Source: Candidatus Gastranaerophilales bacterium
GTDB taxonomy: Bacteria; Cyanobacteriota; Vampirovibrionia; Gastranaerophilales; Gastranaerophilaceae
Assembly (NCBI GenBank): GCA_944324245.1
Contig: CALUVO010000105.1
Coordinates: 1-64,000, forward strand
Direction: 5' to 3'
DNA: 64,000 bases
In this document: positions 3,442 through 49,572 of the stretch, piece after piece
Layout: every line of letters begins with the position of its first letter
Position numbering within the stretch: position 1 is the first letter of the stretch
Program-made: the position numbers and the translations under genes
Notes under the pieces: generated by a model
Told to the model about the DNA's origin: nothing
Database searches by the model: none
Seen by the model: the letters and a program-made list of their open reading frames with translations, nothing else

Positions 3442-4257
3442 TTAATTTGCAAGAAGAGTAAATATTCTTTTTTCAGCTTTATAGATGAGAAGTTCGAGTT
3501 TTAATTGCTTTTGTTCGTCTTTATTTAGCTGTTTGCTTTTAAGCTTTGTCTCGCAATCCTTGATTTTATCATCCAGCTTTGTTGTTGTTTCATCAATTTT
3601 TGACTGTGCTGCAGGGTTAAAGAGGTTATCTTGATTTTCATCAATTATATTATACAAATCCTGTTTATCTTCAGCGCCGGTGAAGTCAGACGGTTTTGTA
3701 TTAATACCGTTTATAACCTGAGTAAGAGAAGTTGTAATTTCTTCAGTATTAAAACCTGTTTCTCCCAGTGCAGAAAATGTTGAAATAAGTGCCATTAATA
3801 TTTCCGATACAGAATAAAGTGTCATTATTTTAAATTGTGCTTCTTCTACCGTTGCTTTAATTTTATCTTCAAGAAGTTTTATTTGTCTGTTTGTATCGTC
3901 ATCACTTAAAAAAGGATTATTTAATAGCATTGAAATTTGCGAAACATATCCTGCTATTGTTGATTTAACAGAACCTATTATGCTATGTACTTTTGAAGCA
4001 GCGTTTATTATAACTGTTGTCAATTCATTTGTATTCAGCTTTGACGCTATATTTACATTATCCGTCATTTTTTGTGCAATATCAGCAAGCGGTGCCATCT
4101 CCAGAGTGTAATCTTTGTTATTAGCATTACATTCGGCAACAGTAGACTTATTTTGAACAAATTGCATTTCATCGTTGTTTGTAACAGATGCAGCTTTATC
4201 GATTTTTGACAGATATGTGTTAGATGTTGGAAAAGAAGTTATTCCGCCGAATAACAT
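3442..4257 (-). CDS. Unknown helical protein, 271 aa
   Basis: Family not recognised. The protein starts MLFGGITSF and has no clear signal peptide. The middle (about 85-175) is helical with moderately hydrophobic stretches around 95-112 and 145-165. The C-terminal third is Lys/Glu/Gln-rich and probably forms a coiled coil. A very good ribosome site (GGAGGT) precedes the ATG at 4257. It ends 2 bases from the convergent 489-residue gene, so the two transcripts meet here without a visible terminator hairpin. The 295-base gap upstream holds structured repeats. Confidence 0.7.
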   Translation of the reverse strand: MLFGGITSFPTSNTYLSKIDKAASVTNNDEMQFVQNKSTVAECNANNKDYTLEMAPLADIAQKMTDNVNIASKLNTNELTTVIINAASKVHSIIGSVKSTIAGYVSQISMLLNNPFLSDDDTNRQIKLLEDKIKATVEEAQFKIMTLYSVSEILMALISTFSALGETGFNTEEITTSLTQVINGINTKPSDFTGAEDKQDLYNIIDENQDNLFNPAAQSKIDETTTKLDDKIKDCETKLKSKQLNKDEQKQLKLELLIYKAEKRIFTLLAN

Positions 4258-4369
4258 ATAATGACCTCCAGGATGTTTGTTCTTAATAAATATCGGTCAT
4301 ATATGTATGATACTTTAGGCTTTATTAAAATTTGTAAAAATTTTATATAGTCAACTGACTCCGACTACT

Positions 4370-4400
4370 TGTTGAACCTGTGCAATAAACAAGTTCAACA
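4370..4400. repeat. Palindromic dispersed repeat, interrupted copy
   Basis: TGTTGAAC at 4370-4377 and GTTCAACA at 4393-4400 are complementary. The right half AAACAAGTTCAACA resembles the repeat AAACAAGTTCAGCATGACA near 48.96 kb, with about ten extra bases in the loop. It is probably a diverged member of the same palindromic family. Confidence 0.4.
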
Positions 4401-4409
4401 TTTAACAAT

Positions 4410-4499
4410 AAGTCTGGCACAGCCAACAAGTGCATGGGGTCTACCTCTCAGAAACAATACTTAATTGTTTCTTCGGCAGAGTCGTAAAATGCTAGACTT
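4410..4499. repeat. Structured repeat with closing helix and inner hairpin (copy 1 of the ACTCTGCCGA family)
   Basis: AAGTCTGGCA (4410-4419) pairs with TGCTAGACTT (4490-4499) over 10 bp including one G-U. Inside is a 9-bp hairpin AGAAACAAT/ATTGTTTCT (4450-4458/4464-4472, loop ACTTA). Its flanks GGGGTCTACCTCTC (4436-4449) and TCGGCAGAGTC (4473-4483) are shared, as reverse complements or direct copies, with two elements next to the tRNA at 49.1-49.4 kb. It lies between the GNAT gene and the 271-residue gene. Confidence 0.6.
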
Positions 4500-4552
4500 G
4501 GCGCCATTCGCACTCCGTGTACCACTCATACAAGCGAGGCCGCATCAGACAA

Positions 4553-49112: not shown

Positions 49113-49129
49113 AAAAACTGGGCCCGGAG

Positions 49130-49183
49130 ACTCTGCCGAATAAAACAAGACTAAATGTCTTGTTTTATGAGAGGTAGAACCCC
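49130..49183 (+). repeat. Hairpin repeat, copy 2 of the ACTCTGCCGA family
   Basis: ACTCTGCCGA (49130-49139), then a perfect 12-bp stem ATAAAACAAGAC/GTCTTGTTTTAT with loop TAAAT (49140-49168), then GAGAGGTAGAACCCC ending at 49183. The stem is different from copy 1 at 4.45 kb and copy 3, but all keep pairing. Confidence 0.65.
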
Positions 49184-49219
49184 GAATTTTCGAAGAAAAT
49201 TTGCGGTTCGAATCCCATG

Positions 49220-49248: not shown

Positions 49249-49320
<72 letters not shown>

Positions 49321-49371
49321 GTGGCTTTATATTCAATTTTATTACGGGACTGCTTGCGGTAGCTGCGCTAC

Positions 49372-49419
49372 CTTCCTCTCCTCTGATGTAACATTTAGTC
49401 ACATCTTCGTCGGCAGAGT
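49372..49419 (-). repeat. Hairpin repeat, copy 3 of the ACTCTGCCGA family
   Basis: Read on the minus strand: ACTCTGCCGA, CGA, a stem GATGTGAC/GTTACATC (one G-U) with loop TAAAT, then GAGGAGAGGAAGGTAG. It is inverted relative to copy 2 and closes the block around the tRNA. Beyond it is a 6-bp hairpin GGTAGC/GCTACC. Confidence 0.6.
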
Positions 49420-49572
49420 GCCACAGGCCCGTGGCTACACAATGTACTCCTCTAAGCATTTGCCTAAAGAGTTAACAATACAGAATCTGTATTCATAAAC
49501 CTTATAACAATCATCTACAGGATTATGATACTTTATTAAGTTATCATTAACATACAGCATGGTCAAGTATAA

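Follow-up and report, generated by a model that had tools for sequence, protein, structure and literature searches.

A hairpin repeat with constant ends and covarying stems in Gastranaerophilales, repeatedly placed in partial copies of tRNA and 5S rRNA genes

Three short hairpins in a 64,000-nucleotide stretch of a Candidatus Gastranaerophilales genome (hereafter the window) belong to a real, family-wide repeat family that is apparently undescribed, as far as we have searched. The module, which we call H, consists of ACTCTGCCGA, a stem mostly of 9–12 bp, a loop (mostly TAAAT, TRAGT, or CNGTG), the complementary stem, and GAGAGG, and is about 37–47 nt long. Repeatedly, H occupies the first arm of incomplete, tandem copies of tRNA and 5S rRNA genes, the intact gene lying 3′ of it, and there it usually replaces 4–6 target bases (GCAGC, GGAATC, GGAAC, GGAAGT, and similar). 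The anatomy of H is well supported and its mechanism is a working hypothesis. We tentatively favor the possibility that H is a short, non-autonomous hairpin module specific to Gastranaerophilales that spreads by way of folded single-stranded DNA.

The H family and its copies in the window

An earlier note on the window reported three hairpins with fixed flanks and dissimilar but complementary stems, and all three lie where it placed them (table 1). The gapped pattern ACTCTGCCGAN{10,40}GAGAGG matches three times in the window, and in 100 dinucleotide shuffles of the window the same pattern gave a mean of 0.00 matches and a maximum of 0. For copy 3, the helix that had been described, AGATGTGAC, is present but was given too short an extent, as the inner arms CGAAGATGTGAC and GTTACATCAGAG comprise this helix plus a tandem G·A pair (C-GA...GA-G); the continuation claimed as GAGAGGTAGA actually reads GAGAGGAAGG. 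The note made no mention of the tRNA-Met(cat) gene that is flanked by copies 2 and 3, each of which is preceded by a duplicated piece of this gene, one from each end. The piece before copy 2 matches the antisense strand of tRNA-Met at 14 of 14 positions and ends at antisense position 11, and that before copy 3 matches tRNA-Met itself at 14 of 14, up to position 11. The shorter hairpin that follows copy 2 we read as a putative tRNA remnant, and a second, shorter hairpin after H is also found in L053, L070, and L280. As RNA, the 96-nt unit at copy 3 is predicted to fold into a three-way junction of an acceptor-like stem, H, and the second hairpin (−38 kcal/mol, z −3.7).

Table 1. Features of the window associated with the three H copies
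Feature	Position	Strand	Sequence or basis
Dispersed composite repeat with copy 1 in its second site	4350..4551 (bounds approximate)	−	Comparison with relatives
Hairpin copy 1	4444..4482	−	ACTCTGCCGA-AGAAACAAT-TAAGT-ATTGTTTCT-GAGAGG; DNA fold z −3.6
First site of composite repeat, empty here	4511..4516	−	GGAGTG; H-filled in L004, L026, L317
Duplicated tRNA-Met 3′ end (antisense), directly before copy 2	49113..49129	+	AAAAACTGGGCCCGGAG
Hairpin copy 2	49130..49174	+	ACTCTGCCGA-ATAAAACAAGAC-TAAAT-GTCTTGTTTTAT-GAGAGG; DNA fold z −7.3
Shorter second hairpin after copy 2	49178..49208	+	AACCCCGAATTTTC..GAAAATTTGCGGTT; seen in sequence
Intact tRNA-Met(cat)	49249..49320	−	ARAGORN
Strand closing outer stem of copy 3 unit	49345..49353	−	GCAGTCCCG; RNA fold
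Second hairpin of copy 3 unit	49358..49372	−	GGTAGC-GCA-GCTACC; starts with tRNA D-loop sequence GGTAGCGCA
Hairpin copy 3	49375..49419	−	ACTCTGCCGA-CGAAGATGTGAC-TAAAT-GTTACATCAGAG-GAGAGG; takes the place of tRNA bases GCAGC
Duplicated tRNA-Met 5′ end, directly before copy 3	49420..49435	−	GCCACGGGCCTGTGGC

All of the sequence data are draft metagenome assemblies. The genome containing the window (G000), a 2.04-Mb draft that is 85% complete, holds 80 exact copies of H against 0 for a reversed-pattern control, and a covariance model returns about 117 matches in it (E ≤ 0.01; E-values rough); the further copies on which the earlier note's reading depended are thus abundant. Exact copies occur in all 22 congeners examined (7–86 per genome), and at least one H is encoded in 346 of 383 Gastranaerophilales genomes, in 37 of 52 genera. 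H is absent from all 161 genomes of the phylum that lie outside this order, and the covariance model found none in 14 genomes of other families within the order and class. The same model also recovers, from two genomes, a few copies whose altered ends kept them from matching the exact pattern. Altered ends in G060 and G074 (L390, L391, L393, L398) read ACTCTGCCGCA, ACTCTGCCAA, and ACTGTGCCGTA, suggesting putative lineage-specific variants of the end tags. Because our aligned copies were picked by exact ends, the invariance of the ends in the alignment is by construction; the covariance model search shows that they are conserved but not absolute.

The earlier note recognized no named family, and we agree. 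A scan against Rfam 15 placed no family above its gathering threshold on H and found only tRNA, relaxed thresholds gave chance-level matches only, and literature searches on repeats in Gastranaerophilales and Melainabacteria turned up nothing relevant and no paper describing H. Named records with a well-paired H are mostly labeled Candidatus Gastranaerophilales or Melainabacteria. A viral origin was considered and rejected, as 101 distinct pattern contexts in viral contigs include just one well-paired stem. This sole case lies on the minus strand of an IMG/VR contig (L171, about 3450–3490), possibly from a phage of these bacteria.

Covariation and the folded strand

Two sets of copies bear on whether the fold of H is under selection. 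Among 30 distinct 41-nt copies, 95.0% of stem cells are paired compared with 66.3% after shuffling, all 10 pairs have changed on both sides, and 86 cells carry double changes where 26.7 are expected (reached in 0 of 500 shuffles). The covariation score is 0.768, against 0.227 ± 0.024 for shuffled copies, and sliding the partner by 1–3 columns lowers pairing to 34–52%. Compensation has also taken place at a single orthologous locus, upstream of tRNA-Met and beside the same protein gene, where 12 units from 11 species were compared: double changes occur in 7 of 12 pairs (for example, ATGTGAC/GTCACAT, AAATGAC/GTCATTT, and AAGTAAC/GTTACTT), and 0 of 500 shuffles reach the score. Two pair columns at this locus are never standard, with a tandem G·A in most rows. 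The selection for structure proposed from three copies is therefore strongly supported, both across copies and in place.

The earlier note had left the choice between RNA and single-stranded DNA undecided. The mismatches within 170 distinct stems are not symmetric between the strands: G·T occurs 44 times and A·C 10 times (p = 3e-6), and tandem GA/GA is present in 31 stems compared with none for its complement TC/TC. Given this asymmetry in G·T, tandem G·A, and G·G, the folded strand is the ACTCTGCCGA strand. Copies beside antisense tRNAs show the same pattern (12 G·T, G·A, or G·G mismatches, 0 of the complements), so that the asymmetry is independent of the direction of tRNA transcription. This argues for single-stranded DNA and against a function within the tRNA transcript, although inherited mismatches could contribute. 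Furthermore, 166 of 173 copies are intergenic, and the flanking protein genes take the four possible orientations 29, 21, 20, and 17 times, with no strand preference. Both lines of evidence favor single-stranded DNA of the ACTCTGCCGA strand, with RNA as the other candidate.

Predicted folds contain an additional short outer helix, CTCT/AGAG. We rejected a kink-turn reading of CUCU-GCC-GA/GA-GAGG, as the tandem G·A is there but the bulge does not fit. Across all contexts, the 5′ flank pairs with the sequence after H at 21% compared with 8% in permuted controls at the chosen cut, a moderate excess that is confounded by tRNA sequence and on which we do not rely.

Placement at tRNA and 5S genes, gain, and loss

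Among 243 sampled unique copies, 111 are followed by a tRNA gene no more than 500 bp away on the 3′ side. An earlier subset of 150 copies included 67 with a tRNA within 500 bp, where random placement predicts 18. The H strand is the sense strand for 86 of these 111 neighbors and antisense for 25. For 96 of these 111 copies, the 14 nt preceding ACTCTGCCGA duplicate the 3′-side tRNA, as its sense 5′ end or its antisense 3′ end (at least 11 of 14 positions matching); tRNAs on the 5′ side are matched in 0 of 25 cases. Sense duplications stop at tRNA position 7–9, 11–13, 17–20, or 26, and antisense duplications at position 10–14 or 36 of the antisense strand, which in nearly all cases is the base or loop of the first arm. 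Where tRNA sequence resumes after H, 4–6 tRNA bases have been lost in 58 of 69 measurable cases (GCAGC, GGAATC, GTAGC, GCAGT, GGAA...), with H plus a few further bases in their place. The leader, tRNA fragment, and H are repeated as tandem units of about 85–130 bp, each retaining one tRNA end and part of the D- or T-arm; in the window, ARAGORN predicts no complete cloverleaf within the H units and finds only the intact tRNA-Met. The same anatomy is seen at a 5S rRNA gene (L414), whose sequence GGGATG|GGAAC|GGGTGG reads GGGATG|H|GGGTGG in two partial copies arranged in tandem; the intact 5S follows them on the 3′ side, and the H strand is antisense to it. The order of fragment, H, remnant, and intact gene, 5′ to 3′ on the folded strand, holds strictly, whichever way the RNA gene runs, and for this reason suggests a polar process.

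Several other features accompany these arrays. A conserved TTGAAAATTRAATA-like leader, which resembles the boxA antitermination sequence, precedes each tRNA copy at many loci (e.g., L036, L108, L128, and L014). In L300, downstream of a Y1 gene, and in L311, tandem tRNA-end arrays carry a different hairpin in the place of H, such as CGGTTTGAGCAAAGCTCGAAC, and H may be one of several such modules. At two loci, H units at tRNA 3′ ends have genes between or next to them, an arrangement resembling integration hot spots (L037, 3803–4487; L035, 2702–4264 and 5168–6190); by eye these genes include an apparent RelE-like/HTH toxin–antitoxin pair, a 520-aa ORF, and a macrodomain-like protein.

Comparison of close relatives provides evidence for gain and loss. 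The composite repeat that holds copy 1 is also found in L004, L016, L026, L317, L324, L332, and L305. It has two sites, each of which is either GRAGTG or H followed by TAG, and all four filled and empty combinations occur. At the copy 1 locus itself, G000 has GACTCTGCC..GAGAGGTA where the sister species G014 has GGAAGT; the repeats are otherwise identical but for one base, and the flanking protein is 94% identical. Most congeners have the orthologous tRNA-Met unit and several lack it entirely, and forms that join the left of one H to a second H occur in L013, L321, L346, and L029. By these comparisons H is present or absent as a unit at orthologous sites, the general criterion for a putative mobile element.

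Short-tract gene conversion between composite repeats could account for the difference between G000 and G014, but it could not account for new contexts such as the tRNA and 5S copies. A rival reading, to which we give little credence, is that no dedicated mechanism exists and that H arises as a by-product when replication switches templates and gene conversion takes place at quasi-palindromes, appearing conserved through mutual re-copying. The replacement of few bases, the partial tandem duplications that always have the intact gene 3′ of them, and second hairpins that resemble foldback copies of tRNA sequence are in line with such events. However, the ends are constant across 37 genera whereas the stems diverge with compensation at an orthologous site, and passive copying would not preserve the ends and the pairing yet lose the stem sequence.

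The placement data also bear on the proposal that H is a structured RNA, in which the tRNA-leader units would fold like tRNA and would direct processing, divert tRNA-binding proteins as decoys, or function as small RNAs, with selection at the RNA level keeping the stems paired. We consider this unlikely, though still worth serious attention. The copy 3 unit is predicted to form a three-way junction, wobble pairs of the G·U type and tandem G·A pairs are typical of RNA, and two observations run against our favored reading of H as a single-stranded DNA module: sense tRNA placements outnumber antisense ones, and at least one of them lies downstream of a likely tRNA promoter (the unit in L424, between promoter and tRNA). 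Because of these observations an RNA role keeps some plausibility. Yet the 25 antisense neighbors have the same strand asymmetry, the 5S case is antisense, there is no strand bias relative to protein genes, many copies reside in dispersed intergenic repeats, and units are missing from the same tRNA-Met locus in several congeners.

A possible mechanism and comparison with known systems

Under the single-strand DNA reading, H would be recognized through its two constant ends and its fold, the stem sequence being free provided that it pairs, and it would act on single-stranded DNA. The setting would be the synthesis of a strand across a gene that folds when single-stranded, such as a tRNA cloverleaf, 5S, or a foldback repeat. 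The growing ACTCTGCCGA strand would acquire H and lose a few bases of the first arm, with H supplied by another copy through template switching or by a structure-specific recombinase. Survivors would be those in which the gene was copied again, giving [gene fragment]-H-[remnant]-[intact gene], and lineages without an intact gene copy would be lost. A broader version of this hypothesis is rather doubtful: that H represents a class of mobile elements defined by fold and ends, which would convert folded tRNA and 5S strands through an uncharacterized single-strand DNA recombinase or replication-coupled copying, first-arm replacement with a partial gene copy left before the intact one being its outcome. 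Against the mobile-module reading, compensated stems have persisted for a long time at tRNA-Met, which resembles function more than parasitism alone.

Several candidate partners were rejected. Reverse transcriptases are sporadic (3 of 23 same-genus genomes), ORFs between nearby H copies in L324, L330, and L008 include no transposase by eye, and L035 and L037 hold cargo genes and, by eye, no recombinase. Y1 transposases are encoded in 18 of 59 relatives, with none in G000, and their partners are GTAG REPs.

REP/BIME elements, GTAG- or CGTC-tagged palindromes associated with RAYT (TnpA-REP) transposases (PMC3733652, PMC8266576), resemble H in being intergenic palindromes of 20–50 nt with tens of copies per genome, in forming mosaics with other modules, and in having one folding strand. 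That H is itself the REP of a RAYT is nevertheless highly improbable and already contradicted. It is a high-copy, intergenic, imperfect palindrome; RAYT-sized Y1 genes are present in 8 of 23 same-genus genomes, and H lies within 200 bp of 3 of 15 Y1 loci. However, no GTAG or CGTC tag precedes the palindrome, where H instead has ACTCTGCCGA preceded by target sequence, and TAG follows its 3′ end in only about half of the copies. In H, both sides of the palindrome are constant (10 nt and 6 nt), the stems covary freely within a single family that spans 37 genera, bases of tRNA and 5S gene copies are replaced, and there is no cognate flanked Y1 gene. The local RAYTs own other GTAG hairpins (GTAGGTTGGGC..GCCCAAC or GTAGGGTGCA..TGCACC), the H-rich genomes G000, G010, and G014 have no Y1 match, and in L306 a RAYT unit has inserted into an H copy. 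We note that the RAYT-type Y1 transposases (177–205 aa; L302, L305, L306, L303, L311, L314) lie within inverted GTAG hairpins, GTAGGTTGGGC..GCCCAACAA and GTAGGGTGCA..TGCACC, which represent a REP/RAYT system of this order. The L306 unit, in a tRNA-Phe array of G002, sits with its REPs within the loop of the H copy and splits it.

Integron attC sites (PMC2727003) offer a second comparison, in likeness only: a folded single strand that is recognized, constant boundaries, a variable terminal stem, strand-selecting asymmetries, and tandem units. Very improbably, H could be an attC-like site of an integron-type tyrosine recombinase, with the units of about 100 bp as cassettes. Its tandem 85–130-bp units, the deletions that join the left of one H to the next, and cargo between units such as the toxin–antitoxin pair of L037 are in line with this. 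However, the R′/R′′ boxes (RYYYAAC and GTTRRRY) are absent and the constant ends are ACTCTGCCGA and GAGAGG, the integron integrase model (TIGR02249) gives no match above cut-off in any of 59 genomes, most units carry no gene cassette, and target bases are replaced rather than precisely joined. The strand asymmetry of H is only compatible with attC-style recombination of a folded strand.

In behavior, H also resembles mitochondrial GC clusters and double-hairpin or repetitive hairpin-forming elements (PMC4478555, PMC2800124), among them the 42-nt GC42. These are short, mobile-looking hairpins, intergenic and within rRNA genes, with complementary substitutions, mergers, shuffling, and no known enzyme. 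H differs in its bacterial chromosomal location, long constant end tags, and tRNA-arm placement with partial gene duplication, and we claim no shared sequence. A further parallel can be drawn with E. coli. There, the tyrT tandem repeats (rtT), at a single locus with a 178-bp unit, likewise adjoin a tRNA gene, and every unit includes the 3′ end of tRNA-Tyr; unlike H, they contain no constant-ended covarying hairpin.

H occurs family-wide in a large, uncultured group of bacteria that live in animal guts and are related to cyanobacteria. As its structure is kept while its stem sequence is free, H allows the recognition of structure to be studied apart from sequence. Of the mechanisms known to act on small palindromes in bacteria, neither RAYT nor integron fits the fixed polarity of H toward intact tRNA and 5S genes or its substitution for a few bases, and the placement of H points to a putative unrecognized process at folded single-stranded DNA. 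The repeated presence of H within surplus, broken tRNA and 5S genes suggests that folded DNA segments may spread by a route not yet recognized. H additionally offers a convenient marker of genome dynamics in Gastranaerophilales and, because many copies sit at contig ends, may help to explain contig breaks in assemblies of this order.
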